The position numbers and the translations under genes are program-made. The notes under the pieces are model-generated. The model saw only the letters and a list, made by a program, of their open reading frames with translations, was not told the origin of the DNA and did no database searches. Below are positions 3,392 to 36,918 of a stretch of 36,924 bases of DNA, one piece after another. The first letter of the stretch is position 1; each line of letters opens with the position of its first letter. Source of the stretch: an uncultured Bacteroidales bacterium (GTDB lineage Bacteria; Bacteroidota; Bacteroidia; Bacteroidales; Paludibacteraceae); assembly GCA_900321605.1 (NCBI GenBank), contig ONWR01000020.1, forward strand, positions 1 to 36,924. Reading direction: 5' to 3'.

Positions 3392-5242
3392 TTATTTATT
3401 GGCTTCTTGTTGTTGAATCTCTTCGATTGAGGGGATCACTAATTCTATGCCTACCGGCAGTTCGCTCGGTTTGGACAGTTTGTCTCTGTTGGCTTCGTAG
3501 ATATAGATCCAATAGTCCGGATTGCCATAATGACGTCTTGCTATCTGCGCAAGGCGTGAACCTGCTTTGACTGTCTCGGTGACGCGTCCTTCCGGTGCTT
3601 TTGCTGCCTTCTGCGGACGTGCAACAGGAGCAGCAGGAGCAGCGGGTTTCTCTTCGACAGGAGCTTCTACTTTCTTCTCTTGACCCACAGGCACGATCTC
3701 CACGCGGCGGTCTTTGCTCAGTTGGTGCTTGCCTTTGTAGCGGAACGGCATGTTGTCGCCTAAGCTGGCGATGATCATCTGCTCGTCCTTGACACCGAGT
3801 TCACGCAGTTGGGCTGCTACGGCTTTGGCGCGACGCAGCGCTAAGCGTTTGTTATAGTCGGGTTTGCCCAATTTGCAAGCATGACCGTTGACGTGTATCT
3901 GCTGATTAGGATGACGCTTGAGGATATCCGCAATACGGATGAGGATATCTTCCGGTTCGAGGATAGGAATAGCCTTATCGAGGTCAAAATAGATCACAGC
4001 GGTCTGCAGTTCGTCTTCTAACATCTCTGCTGCGGAGCGTGTGTCAACCGGTTCCGGTTCCGGCTCTTGAACGATGGTATCGGTACAGAACGTCCGGCAG
4101 ATGTCGATATTATTCTCCTCGGCGATGAGCAAGATCTGTTTGATTGCTTCCTCACGCGGGTCGATAGGCTCTTCTACGATAACCGGTACTACGGGCTCTA
4201 CGGGTTCCGGTTCCCAGCTAATGGTCTGAGGAACGCTGTCCTGCTGCTGTGCAGCTTTGCGCAGACGGCGTTGCTCACGGTCGTAGTCACGTTGTGCTTT
4301 CGTGCGGTTAGCGTTGATCTGGAGTCCAATCTTCAGACCGACAGACCAAGGGTGCAACTCTTTGACTTCGTTGGAACGCAGCACACCGGCATAGGACTCG
4401 TTGTACGGCATCGGATACTTACCGGTGGTACGTCCGTCTGCAAAACCGAGTGCTACGTTGCTACGCGACTCCATGAGGTCTGTGAAGTAGTAGTTTCCAT
4501 AGGCAGCGATAGCTAATTCTACGCGCTGATGGAGGCGTATGAGCATGCCTAATTCGAGATAAGCGGCATAATTGAGCGTACGCAGATGACCGGTACCTAA
4601 TCTGCCCTTATCGGACGGAATAGAGAGGTTCTCCACCACGCCCGGCACATTGCTCATCGTCAGGTTGTAGAAGGGATAATAGACGGAGTTCTCTATCATT
4701 CCGTTGGCTCCTAAGTTCTGATTCGTAGCTACCGGAATACCGATCTTGACTCCTGCTGTTCCGGTAAAGCCGACCACACCCGGACGAGCACGGAACTTGA
4801 GAGCAAGCGGAATCTCCACCATGTAGATGTTCTGATCTTCCCTCAGTTTGTTAGGCGTAGAGGTGATGGTGTAGTCGTCGTTATAGATATCTTGGGTAGT
4901 CTGCGTCCACGCTTTGGTGACCGATGCGCGGTTCGGGTACGCAGAGAACTGAGCACCTGTACCGATACCCATCCAAGGTACGAAATAATAGTTGATTCCT
5001 ATGCCTGCATGCCAAGCAGGGAACTTGATCTTGTTTTGTGTATGAGGTGCGCTATAGGATGATCCGAGTTGGTCAAACAGGTAACTGCCGACGCCCAGAC
5101 CTCCTTCGAACTCGAAGTTCCATCCGTATGCTATGTTGGGTTCTTCGGCACTTGCCTGACGAACCGAATCGGGGTATTGTTTCGCCGAGAGAGAAACGGC
5201 GGTGAGCAACATCGTTGCTATGATCATAGTCTTTGTTTTCAT
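3392..5242 (-). CDS. OmpA-family outer membrane protein with N-terminal beta-barrel and C-terminal LysM-like domain
   Basis: A 616-residue envelope protein that probably links the outer membrane to peptidoglycan. Residues 1-20 form a signal peptide ending SLSA. Residues about 35-330 resemble an outer membrane beta-barrel. A basic then acidic/Pro-rich linker follows (about 330-420). The OmpA peptidoglycan-binding domain is at about 425-530 (VIYFDLDKA, VNGHACKLG, NKRLALRRAKAVA). After a Pro/Ala linker a LysM-like domain covers about 560-610 (VKAGSRLAQIARRHYGNPDY). It lies 12 bases downstream of the T9SS cargo gene and is probably its operon partner. A PorE-like T9SS role is possible but the domain order differs, so I give no symbol. 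Confidence 0.9.
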   Translation of the reverse strand: MKTKTMIIATMLLTAVSLSAKQYPDSVRQASAEEPNIAYGWNFEFEGGLGVGSYLFDQLGSSYSAPHTQNKIKFPAWHAGIGINYYFVPWMGIGTGAQFSAYPNRASVTKAWTQTTQDIYNDDYTITSTPNKLREDQNIYMVEIPLALKFRARPGVVGFTGTAGVKIGIPVATNQNLGANGMIENSVYYPFYNLTMSNVPGVVENLSIPSDKGRLGTGHLRTLNYAAYLELGMLIRLHQRVELAIAAYGNYYFTDLMESRSNVALGFADGRTTGKYPMPYNESYAGVLRSNEVKELHPWSVGLKIGLQINANRTKAQRDYDREQRRLRKAAQQQDSVPQTISWEPEPVEPVVPVIVEEPIDPREEAIKQILLIAEENNIDICRTFCTDTIVQEPEPEPVDTRSAAEMLEDELQTAVIYFDLDKAIPILEPEDILIRIADILKRHPNQQIHVNGHACKLGKPDYNKRLALRRAKAVAAQLRELGVKDEQMIIASLGDNMPFRYKGKHQLSKDRRVEIVPVGQEKKVEAPVEEKPAAPAAPVARPQKAAKAPEGRVTETVKAGSRLAQIARRHYGNPDYWIYIYEANRDKLSKPSELPVGIELVIPSIEEIQQQEANK

Positions 5243-8587: not shown

Positions 8588-8667
8588 AATAAAAAGGAAT
8601 TGAGGTGATTGATTAGTACCGCGAGCCGGGGTCGAACCGGCACAGCCATCACTGGCCAAAGGATTTT

Positions 8668-9352
8668 CATACATTCGCTGCCGATCATTCAGCGTCTGCT
8701 TGGACTATGTCTTAACCTTATCCAGAGGACTTAGGTTGTGGGTATATAGTCTCTACACATTTAGGCGTTTCCGCCACTTAGCTCGGCGTTCTGAACATTT
8801 AAAGGCTGTTCCATTCACCGAATTAGCCCACTTCTACTTCAAGCCTTTCGACCTGAGCACTCTTTACCTTTGTTCTTTCCTCGATAATTGTCAGTTAGTG
8901 CGTGACAATTGGGGCACAACAGTTGAAGATTTTCTAATCGTTGGTCATCCCGTATGGCATTGATGTGATGTAACTCCAAAGCAATAGGTTGCCCTAACCA
9001 TTCTGTCAGTCCGCAACATTCGCATTTGTGCTGCTTAATCCCTTCGCGTAACAATCGTTCGCGCAGATGATTTGCGTTAACAAATGTTGAGTGTGCCACC
9101 AAAATCTCACTGAGCGGTTGAGGCTCTCGGAGAGGTTTATACCGTGCTCCTTGGTTCCAACCTTTTCCTGTCATATGAGACGTGTCGAGGTGTAACTCTT
9201 GAATTTTGCGTTTCACAGTGTCGTAGTTGCTACCGGCTACTCGCAAATGTAATTTTCCAATTACTTGCGCGTAAGAATAACTTGTACGTACTGCTTCTAC
9301 AAAATCCTGATCTGTCCATTTTCGTTTACTCATAAACTCCAATGTTTCGTCA
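8668..9352 (-). ncRNA. Group I self-splicing intron in tRNA-Leu(UAA)
   Basis: On the reverse strand P1 forms from exon GACUU plus intron UGA pairing with UUGGAGUU, which puts a U-G wobble at the 5' splice site. The core lies after the HNH frame: a P-like AATTCGGTGAATGG (8811-8824), a Q-like AACGCCGAGC (8781-8790), R GTGTAGAGACTAT (8746-8758) and S AAGACATAGTCC (8702-8713). P7 is GACTAT (8746-8751) with ATAGTC (8703-8708). CGCTG/CAGCG near the 3' end resembles P9. The intron ends in the required terminal G (8668). Subgroup is not assigned. The ORF occupies the space between P1 and the P4 strands. Confidence 0.9.
8839..9333 (-). CDS. HNH homing endonuclease encoded in the group I intron
   Basis: A 164-residue putative homing endonuclease. 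It would cut intronless tRNA-Leu alleles and so spread the intron. The N-terminal half is a helical DNA-binding region (KWTDQDFVEAVRTSYSYAQV, then GSNYDTVKRKIQEL and LDTSHMTGKGWNQGARY). The C-terminal half is a zinc-supported HNH domain with CECCG, LELHHINAIRDDQRLENLQL and CPNCH. The ATG at 9333 lies just after P1. A TTG at 9342 inside P1 is the only earlier option and is less likely. The stop precedes the catalytic core, so the ORF sits in a peripheral loop. It has no promoter of its own and would be expressed from the tRNA precursor. Confidence 0.9.
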   Translation of the reverse strand: MSKRKWTDQDFVEAVRTSYSYAQVIGKLHLRVAGSNYDTVKRKIQELHLDTSHMTGKGWNQGARYKPLREPQPLSEILVAHSTFVNANHLRERLLREGIKQHKCECCGLTEWLGQPIALELHHINAIRDDQRLENLQLLCPNCHALTDNYRGKNKGKECSGRKA

Positions 9353-9389
9353 AAGTCCTTCGTGTCTACCTATTCCACCATCGCGGCAT

Positions 9390-9429: not shown

Positions 9430-9460
9430 CAAAGGTACAACAAAAATTTCACATATGCAA
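9430..9460 (-). promoter_or_regulatory. Bacteroidota-type promoter of tRNA-Leu
   Basis: Reverse strand: TTGCATATGT (9451-9460), then TACCTTTG (9430-9437), with 20 bases between TTG and the -7 element. It points at the tRNA gene 43 bases downstream. Confidence 0.8.
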
Positions 9461-35848: not shown

Positions 35849-36918
35849 GTTTGACAGCAATGCAGAAAAAACGGGAAAGATTTGCACCTTTCCCGGAAAA
35901 TAGTTAATTTTGTATTGCCTATGTCAAAACAACTAAATTCGCTGCAAAGGTACGCAATTTATTTGGGACTTGCAAGAAAACAGTCAAAAAAAAGTATCGC
36001 GATGGAAATTGGAGTCCATCCTTCGACGGTAACGAGGGAGATTCAGCGTAACCGAAACAAGTATGGTCAGTATGTCCATACCATCGCTCAGCAGAAATGC
36101 GACAGTCGCAAACACAGTACCTTAGGAAATCACCGCAAGAGTGCTCTTTTGTGGTGGCGTGTAGAACAAATGATCAAAGATGAGGACTGGTCTCCTCGTC
36201 AAATCAGCGGTGTGCTAGCCAAAGAAGGTGTGCATATATGTGCGCAGACCATCTATAACCATGTGCATGCGGATGAGACGGGTGAACTGGCTAAACACAT
36301 GCCTCATGAGTTGCGTTACAGACGCCGGCAGAAGAAGCTGCGTCCGACCAAGACGACCTCTATCCCAAACAGAACCAGCATCCATGAACGACCGGTAGAA
36401 GCGGATGGCAAGCGTTTTGGAGACTGGGAGATGGATCTGATAGTGGACGGTTACAAGCATGTCATTCTTACTTTGGTGGAGCGCAGCACTAATATGCTGA
36501 TGATGGAAAAACTGCCGTATGGAAAGAAAGCCGTTCCAGTAGCCAAGACGGTTGTGCGTTTGCTGATGCCTTACCGTGAAACGGTCAAAACAATTACCAC
36601 GGACAACGGAACGGAGTTTGCCGCACACCAGCTGATCACGAAAGGATTAAGAATGAAAGGGAAAGAAGATGTTATTGTGTATTTTGCGGACTCTTACTCC
36701 TCTTGGCAGAAGGGATGTATAGAAAACACCAACAAACTCATCCGTAAATACATACCCAAGCATGCTAATTTTAACCGTTTTTCGGATGAAACAATCCGAC
36801 AGATCCAGTACAAACTGAACAAGCGTCCGAGAGAAAAATTGAATTTTTTTACTCCTTTATTTTGTTTTTCCAAACATTTTTACTAACTTTGCACCCGAAA
36901 TTGCATTTGCTGTTGGAC
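35849..36918 (+). mobile_element. IS30 family insertion sequence
   Basis: A left inverted repeat near 35851 (TTGACAGCAATGCA) matches imperfectly the reverse of the sequence at 36901-36918 (TTGCATTTGCTGTTGGAC); both contain TGCA and ACAGCA. An IS30 transposase gene fills the interior. Near the left end CGGGAAAG/CTTTCCCG (about 35872-35896) forms a hairpin. The exact ends and target duplication are not fixed because the right end lies at the window edge. Confidence 0.7.
35921..36886 (+). CDS. IS30 family transposase
   Basis: A 321-residue transposase starting MSKQLNSLQRYAIYLGLARK. The N-terminal helix-turn-helix is KKSIAMEIGVHPSTVTREIQ, and a second one lies in WSPRQISGVLAKEGVHICAQ. The DDE catalytic residues are in GDWEMDLIVDG, TITTDNGTEF and KGCIENTNKLIRKY. 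It appears complete, ending FFTPLFCFSKHFY. The ATG at 35921 is chosen; a TTG at 35882 lies near the left hairpin and is less likely. Confidence 0.93.
   Translation: MSKQLNSLQRYAIYLGLARKQSKKSIAMEIGVHPSTVTREIQRNRNKYGQYVHTIAQQKCDSRKHSTLGNHRKSALLWWRVEQMIKDEDWSPRQISGVLAKEGVHICAQTIYNHVHADETGELAKHMPHELRYRRRQKKLRPTKTTSIPNRTSIHERPVEADGKRFGDWEMDLIVDGYKHVILTLVERSTNMLMMEKLPYGKKAVPVAKTVVRLLMPYRETVKTITTDNGTEFAAHQLITKGLRMKGKEDVIVYFADSYSSWQKGCIENTNKLIRKYIPKHANFNRFSDETIRQIQYKLNKRPREKLNFFTPLFCFSKHFY

Follow-up and report, generated by a model that had tools for sequence, protein, structure and literature searches.

A group I intron with an HNH endonuclease in the only detected tRNA-Leu(UAA) gene of an uncultured Bacteroidales bacterium, and its kinship with phage introns

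The group I intron of the cyanobacterial and plastid tRNA-Leu(UAA) gene belongs to subgroup IC3, and since the known tRNA-Leu(UAA) introns mostly lack an endonuclease, their origin and past mobility are an old question. The intron of the Synechocystis tRNA-fMet gene encodes its own endonuclease, I-Ssp6803I, which has the PD-(D/E)xK fold.

In the accessible excerpts of the literature, the cyanobacterial tRNA-Leu(UAA) intron is called ancestral, and bacterial tRNA group I introns are listed for cyanobacteria and alpha- and beta-proteobacteria (PMC4033280). Lateral movement of the cyanobacterial intron was proposed earlier by Rudi and Jakobsen (cited in the excerpt of PMC5733544), and putative tRNA-Leu introns are reported in BOGUAY and Thiomargarita (PMC4853749, in whose accessible text we found no mention of an ORF). 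Concerning phages, the available sections describe collaborative homing for F-CphI and the psbA intron of cyanophage S-PM2 (PMC6083498, PMC2988022) and many group I introns in protein genes of Bacteroidota phages (PMC12363816, PMC7886860; the word tRNA is absent from the available part of the first). An excerpt from 2014 states that all phage introns observed until then lay in protein-coding genes despite the many tRNA genes of phages (PMC3984707). Within the portion of the open PubMed Central literature covered here, we came across no description of phage tRNA-Leu genes with group I introns.

The window analysed here, by which we mean the whole stretch of 36,924 nt, contains a tRNA-Leu(UAA) gene at 9387-8617 on the minus strand that is interrupted between U34 and A35 by a 685-nt group I intron. 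Gene and site, the latter read from the sequence, are those of the cyanobacterial and plastid intron, as the initial annotation had proposed. The locus comprises the following features:

9353..9387, minus strand: 5' exon of tRNA-Leu(UAA), 35 nt, with U34 as its 3' end (sequence reading and ARAGORN)
8668..9352, minus strand: group I intron, 685 nt, final base G8668 (ARAGORN on the joined exons; RF00028 match at 8681-8914)
8617..8667, minus strand: 3' exon of tRNA-Leu(UAA), 51 nt, with A35 as its first base (sequence reading and ARAGORN)
8839..9333, minus strand: HNH endonuclease ORF of 164 aa inside the P1 loop, from ATG 9333 to the stop at 8839 (Pfam and PHROG matches)
8859..8862, minus strand: internal guide GAGU, pairing with exon A31 C32 U33 U34 to form P1, with U34-G at the splice site (read from the sequence)
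8839..8856, minus strand: P2 hairpin with a GAAA loop, including the stop codon of the ORF (read from the sequence)
8701..8831, minus strand: ribozyme core P3-P8 including the P7 pseudoknot (alignment and covariation; 126.5 bits with model R1, the window being one of that model's own sequences)
9430..9437, minus strand: TACCTTTG, a promoter-like element which we take, from the consensus, to be a -7 element of the Bacteroidota type

Both exons make up a complete leucine tRNA, as first annotated: once joined they give an 86-nt product that ARAGORN calls tRNA-Leu(taa), with a G1-U72 pair, and exon reading and ARAGORN agree on the break between U34 and A35. The P1 helix with a U-G pair at the 5' splice site and the terminal G, both described initially, can be read in the sequence, and together with the product given by exon joining they constitute hallmarks of a group I intron. 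The earlier placement of the ORF had to be corrected: because P1 is formed by A31 C32 U33 U34 with GAGU at 8862-8859, the ORF fills the P1 loop, and its 3' end overlaps both the guide and the P2 hairpin (8856-8839). The motif GAGTG is found behind the ORF in the type-1 relatives (see below) too, and the letters of the putative -7 element recur upstream in loci L002, L004, L005, L012, L014 and L015.

ARAGORN run without introns detected no tRNA in the window, and the default Rfam scan of the window at gathering came back empty because the RF00028 score lies under the gathering score; two default scans therefore overlook this gene. In the assembly (2.3 Mb, 94.9% complete), RF00005 matches 39 places, among which the leucine calls are gag, cag, tag and caa with no taa. 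An intact second tRNA-Leu(UAA), which the initial annotation had named among the findings that would speak against it, is absent from the assembly, and the split gene is the only tRNA-Leu(UAA) detected in this draft genome. Empty sites are present in four genomes of the same genus, in which a gap-free alignment with the joined exons shows identity at 77-78 of the 86 positions. At the end of the window, an ORF resembling an IS30-like transposase (35882-36886) was noticed by eye.

The group I model RF00028 matches positions 8681-8914 of the minus strand with 35.6 bits (E 3.2e-7), under its gathering score of 50; the lack of any group I hit, also named initially as a refuting finding, is thereby countered. 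We aligned 24 cores (13 bacterial, 11 from phages) over 159 columns. In a full structure that includes the P7 pseudoknot, 85.9% of 767 cells pair, versus 31-41% when the partners are slid, the P6 pairs being misplaced in this structure (27% paired) and the other helices being 72-100% paired. The covariation score is 0.423, versus 0.07-0.13 for slid partners, and none of 500 shuffles reaches it; one of five measures, the number of further pair types, did not rise above shuffles of the 24 cores (122/500). P7 is near-invariant and therefore gives no covariation signal. RNAalifold, unaided, recovers P3, P4 and P8, with compensatory change in 15 of 20 pairs, and also yields a hairpin of two pairs that does not belong to the group I fold. 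The locus holds a group I intron core whose pairs are kept by compensatory change, and the P3-P8 core with its P7 is upheld by alignment and covariation, in line with the core segments read at the outset. The type-2 cores (L048, L049, L119) have a poor P4 with mismatches, yet these cores are common to bacteria and phage.

The 164-aa ORF matches the Pfam HNH family PF01844 above the cut-off (E 1.2e-5), in agreement with the HNH gene first noted in the intron, and phrog_10822 over residues 2-159 (E 2.4e-47). The HNH triad and the CxxC pairs are present, and residues C104, C107, H123, N135, C140, C143 and H144 are invariant in sets of 23 and 32 sequences. An AlphaFold model (pLDDT 87.5, pTM 0.58) shows N-terminal helices, a putative DNA-binding part, followed by a C-terminal HNH part; comparison with the solved structures of the PDB gave no match, either by sequence (E<=0.1) or by fold (E<=0.001). 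We know of no HNH member of PHROG 10822 / PF01844 with a tested target. The dN/dS ratio is 0.055-0.149 in eight of the nine bacterial ORF pairs with measurable dS, the other pairs being saturated, and 0.27 in the ninth, the near-identical pair G117/G182. Because of these low values among intact bacterial copies, the ORF looks to be under purifying selection and the enzyme to have been kept.

Model R1 finds the intron in 24 of 178 genomes of the same genus, including 13 of 68 good genomes; since R1 was partly built from these sequences and strict filters were applied, this count is a floor for other intron types. By R1 score, 20 of the 24 introns are of one type. The ORF is intact in 12 (ten of type 1, two of type 2), decayed in 6, without a match in 5 and cut off in 1. 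All 24 genomes have the 3' junction GAAAATC. ARAGORN gives Leu(taa) for 5 of the genomes, Phe for 9 and Ser for 9, the last two labels arising because the program slides the junction, and could not call L307, whose 5' exon lies off the contig; the loci in which both exons were read are Leu(UAA). The sequence records name Paludibacteraceae, rumen and red deer.

In 138 of the 178 genomes, a Leu(UAA) pattern without interruption is matched with at most three mismatches. Such a copy is present in 135 of the 154 intronless genomes versus 2 of the 24 intron-bearing ones (G027 and G117, with contamination of 7% and 5%), the match in G118 being the start of its own intron. Among the 14 genomes of the genus matched by RF00028, 12 are confirmed by R1, which gives no match at the RF00028 loci L105 (G097) and L097 (G146).

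In a wider set of 395 Bacteroidota genomes, 27 are matched by R1. The tRNA calls in the 29 loci that were read (L320-L348) include tRNA-Leu(UAA), tRNA-Arg and others, and one of these loci, L320 (G379, same class, other family), has an intact HNH of the window family. The break in L320 is apparently one nucleotide off, between U33 and U34. Other tRNA group I introns of Bacteroidota (L336 in G484, L340, L342, L343 and L344) carry ORFs of 139-161 aa that by eye we take to resemble PD-(D/E)xK endonucleases, the one in L336 being I-Ssp6803I-like; their hosts are a tRNA-Met-like gene and tRNA-Arg-like genes. A free-standing HNH adjoins an intact tRNA-Leu(UAA) in Hymenobacter, and at L013 a Hymenobacter HNH lies beside a tRNA-Leu(UAA) in two pieces about 860 bp apart.

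We recovered rpoB from 19 of the 25 genomes queried. Core and rpoB distances are uncorrelated (Spearman 0.13, p 0.17; 105 pairs among 15 type-1 genomes). Genomes G117 and G182 share 99.2% identity in the ORF and 99.5% in the core (HNH dS 0.019), versus 80.6% in the upstream and 87% in the downstream flank, a contrast that is independent of binning because the flanks lie on the same contigs. Likewise, G000 and G137 agree at 98.6% in the ORF and 99.5% in the core, with flanks at 72.9% upstream and 93% downstream, and G170 and G182, only one of which has the ORF, have cores 98.9% identical with an upstream flank at 86.0% and rpoB 14.1% different. The pair G022 and G129 looks vertical (flank 95.0%, ORF 95.9%, core 99.0%, rpoB 5.9% different). 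These comparisons show recent transfer of the intron within the genus and speak for a horizontal spread independent of the host genome. They partly answer the question raised initially, independent homing to the same site or transfer: the intron is present in 24 of 178 genomes and moves between them, and at least two distinct core lineages occupy the one site, each grouped with phage introns.

The window HNH finds 34 loci in IMG/VR, near-identical phages included, and 32 of these 34 nearest viral HNHs lie inside, or at most 101 nt from, a tRNA-Leu(UAA). In 26 loci a free-standing HNH is preceded, at a distance of at most 101 nt, by the end of an uninterrupted tRNA-Leu(UAA); in four (L069, L072-L074) an ORF-less group I intron interrupts the tRNA gene and the HNH lies immediately outside it; and in two (L051, L052) the HNH lies within the intron, in a window-like arrangement. 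At L075 and L084, the remaining loci, Leu(UAA) is no more than 370 nt away. The terminase phrog_2 was matched in four of ten records queried (L119, L197, L202, L106). A subsequent search for further phage markers in L051 and L052 found polymerase, ligase and tail/lysis genes in L051, and capsid, portal and polymerase genes in L052.

Wider scans gave 158 distinct HNHs past the length and score limits, forming 114 clusters at 70%, and 16 of the 158 have no tRNA within 250 nt. With five intron-split tRNAs relabelled Leu(UAA) by hand, 25 of the 27 clusters nearest the profile are inside or adjoining Leu(UAA), the exceptions being L075 and L222, the latter with Leu(UAA) at 50 nt. Clusters farther from the profile adjoin many other tRNAs, members of the wider family being found by tRNA-Gln, Trp, Gly, Asn and others. 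Of the 90 clusters with at least two tRNAs in the locus, 31 have Leu(UAA) as the nearest one, versus 11.6 expected for a tRNA drawn at random from the locus, and none of 100,000 draws reaches 31. Because the profile was made from the window's own relatives, this adjacency describes the clade and not all HNHs; judged by gene neighbourhood, the closest HNH clade is tied to Leu(UAA). A terminase-side HNH chosen as an outside control gave a single relative, and the internal comparison was therefore used. Matches to several other RNAs were seen close to tRNA-linked phage HNHs: a sub-threshold permuted tmRNA match just upstream of the HNH in L085 (Dulem virus 42; 3453-3844, 37.4 bits, gathering 47), a ROOL RNA match in L109 (3005-3450), a cow-rumen-3 RNA match below gathering in L140 (605-700) and a skipping-rope RNA match in L143 (1926-1995).

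In an HNH tree of 109 rows, made by a quick method and with 56 of its 106 inner branches under 80, the window falls in a nine-row clade (support 99) of bacterial introns, phages L051, L052 and L085 and the free-standing L008, and the type-2 HNH groups with phage L119 (97). Along this tree the tRNA label changes 14 times, the fewest in 300 shuffles being 25, and the inside/outside state also changes 14 times, the fewest in shuffles being 19. A single clade of all seven bacterial rows is not rejected by the HNH tree (AU p 0.39); as proof of several bacterial acquisitions this tree was set aside as not significant, and the core tree carries the claim. The latter (24 rows, 138 columns, four long branches, bootstrap not settled) places type 1 with phages L051 and L203 (99/100), type 2 with phage L119 (100/100) and type 3, represented by G027 (a MAG contaminated at 7%), with phage L052 (98/92). 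Bacterial monophyly of the cores is rejected (AU p 1.8e-6), as is that of types 1 and 2 (p 6e-6). By these phylogenies, both cores and HNHs are akin to those of phages.

The position of the HNH in phage introns varies. It lies 5' of the core in L051, L052, L119, L126, L144, L197-L200, L202 and L203 (no 3' splice site was found in L199 and L200, and no split tRNA was called in L144 and L200). In L051, L052, L126 and L202 the guide stands behind the ORF, which in these four is therefore in L1. The HNH is in L6 in sense orientation in L106 (a 595-kb phage), L134 (tRNA-Leu(CAA)), L140 and L143, in L6 in antisense in L127, L128, L132 (called Leu(tag)) and L138, and outside the intron in L069, L072, L073, L116, L131, L135, L147 and L153. 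Judged by layout, a free-standing HNH stands beside an ORF-less intron at its putative target gene in L069, L072-L074, L116, L131, L135-L137, L147 and L153, several of which are near-identical phages and two of which (L131, L153) have a broken or partial HNH. The series from a free HNH, through an HNH beside an ORF-less intron, to an HNH within the intron is what collaborative homing predicts (PMC2988022, PMC6083498).

Pattern scans found an L069-like core in at least 120 viral contigs and a window-type core in 16, with a Leu-type junction in 83 of the 120 L069-like contigs listed and in 14 of the 16. ARAGORN calls Leu(taa) in 41 of the 120 listed, Tyr(ata) in 35 (a slid reading in the cases read), Arg(tct) in 8, others in 16 and none in 20. 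An HNH of the window family lies beside 31 and inside 2 of the 120 L069-like introns listed, and inside 3 of the 16 window-type ones, with 1 more at a contig edge; the stretch examined held no HNH of this family in 87 of the 120 listed and 12 of the 16. In three of those 12 (L503, L507, L510), an unrelated HNH_3 + zf-FCS ORF stands 5' of the core, so that one endonuclease has been exchanged for another. Self-protection of phages by altered anticodon arms, suggested by three locus pairs, was not supported: next to an HNH the canonical motif is kept in 13 of 41 distinct arms, and away from one in 3 of 7, which is no difference. Phage class I tRNA genes in L114, L255, L271 and L289 are apparently split by a different group I intron that carries a longer HNH of the same family (ARAGORN calls Lys in L255, L271 and L289), and second group I matches were seen in the phage contigs of L052 (745-991) and L131 (2803-2984, with a tRNA-Arg(tct) call).

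Taken together, we consider it probable that the locus is a mobile group I homing intron in the sole detected tRNA-Leu(UAA) gene, exchanged with phages and assembled by collaborative homing. The precursor would fold and the intron remove itself, leaving a tRNA that reads UUA codons. The HNH protein would be made from the unspliced precursor and cut intronless tRNA-Leu(UAA) genes near the anticodon, and repair off the intron-bearing copy would spread intron and ORF together. The HNH lineage would at first have been free-standing beside phage tRNA-Leu(UAA) genes, and would have joined introns at this gene more than once and in different loops, with collaborative homing as the first stage and capture as the second. 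An exchange of such introns between phages and rumen Bacteroidales would have taken place, probably at least twice; the number and direction of these transfers are inferred. Because relatives of the intron and of the HNH lie in or beside the same tRNA in many phages, a selfish element of viruses and bacteria is suggested.

An old, vertically inherited intron, as argued for plastids and part of the cyanobacteria, with the ORF as a late passenger, would fit the presence of the cyanobacterial intron at the same site, the predominance of one type by score (20 of 24 in the genus) and pairs such as G022/G129 that diverge in step with their flanks. Such inheritance would, however, have to accommodate a patchy occurrence (24 of 178), core distances that do not track rpoB, introns 99% identical inside upstream flanks at 81% and the sharing of one site by two or more core types, each grouped with phages; it is already disfavoured by the rpoB comparison, the flank contrast and the core tree, and we hold it to be very improbable. 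Even less credible is a dead, unspliced tRNA with an intron decaying as junk. The ORF is indeed decayed in 6 and absent in 5 of the 24 relatives, but no other tRNA-Leu(UAA) was found in the assembly, compensatory change maintains the core pairs and the ORF looks to be under purifying selection.

The strongest competitor, still unlikely in our judgement, grants that the intron is mobile and has the HNH hitchhike without targeting the anticodon, as a phage exclusion nuclease or an agent of tRNA-gene duplication or spread. The family members by tRNA-Gln, Trp, Gly, Asn and other tRNAs would suit such a role, as would the available account of the GIY-YIG enzyme SegB, by which tRNA loci of phages are amplified to counter a defence that cuts tRNAs (PMC13096335). 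Against it stand the tie of the closest clade to Leu(UAA), the several places that the ORF occupies in introns at one site and the recent transfer of intron and ORF between hosts. By analogy with SegB, amplification of tRNAs against defence is a possible added role of tRNA-linked HNHs in a homing intron of the kind that we favour. A broader proposal, which we put forward tentatively as possible yet rather doubtful, is that tRNA-Leu(UAA) is the home of a class of phage-borne mobile introns, powered by a tRNA-tracking HNH lineage that would have captured introns at this gene time and again; the bacterial introns, perhaps those of cyanobacteria and plastids as well, would be settled descendants of this phage pool.

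With the cyanobacterial and plastid tRNA-Leu(UAA) intron, the intron of the window shares the gene, the break and the layout of a small group I core; it differs in its HNH ORF in the P1 loop, its phage relatives and its transfers between close hosts. Like the I-Ssp6803I intron, it is a group I intron that interrupts the anticodon region of a tRNA and carries the gene for its own endonuclease, whereas the tRNA is another one and the enzyme is an HNH here and a PD-(D/E)xK there. The protein itself is like the HNH endonucleases of PHROG 10822 / PF01844 in its match over residues 2-159 and in the HNH residues kept. T4/T6 SegB, a free-standing homing endonuclease, is similar in its location in phage tRNA arrays, but in the excerpts available it belongs to the GIY-YIG family and has no intron. 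The phage tRNA-Leu introns described here run against the excerpted statement of 2014 on phage introns (PMC3984707). A parallel in mechanism is offered by F-CphI and the psbA intron, where a free-standing endonuclease likewise lies by a gene whose intron breaks the cut site and a mobile intron would originate by joining; here, in contrast, the gene is a tRNA gene, the enzyme an HNH, the states run from free to captured in several places and there are relatives in bacterial chromosomes. The tRNA-Leu(UAA) site is found here with an engine attached, in empty, ORF-bearing, decayed and ORF-less states within one genus and with phage counterparts, and the collaborative-homing model gains a natural series for one target gene.
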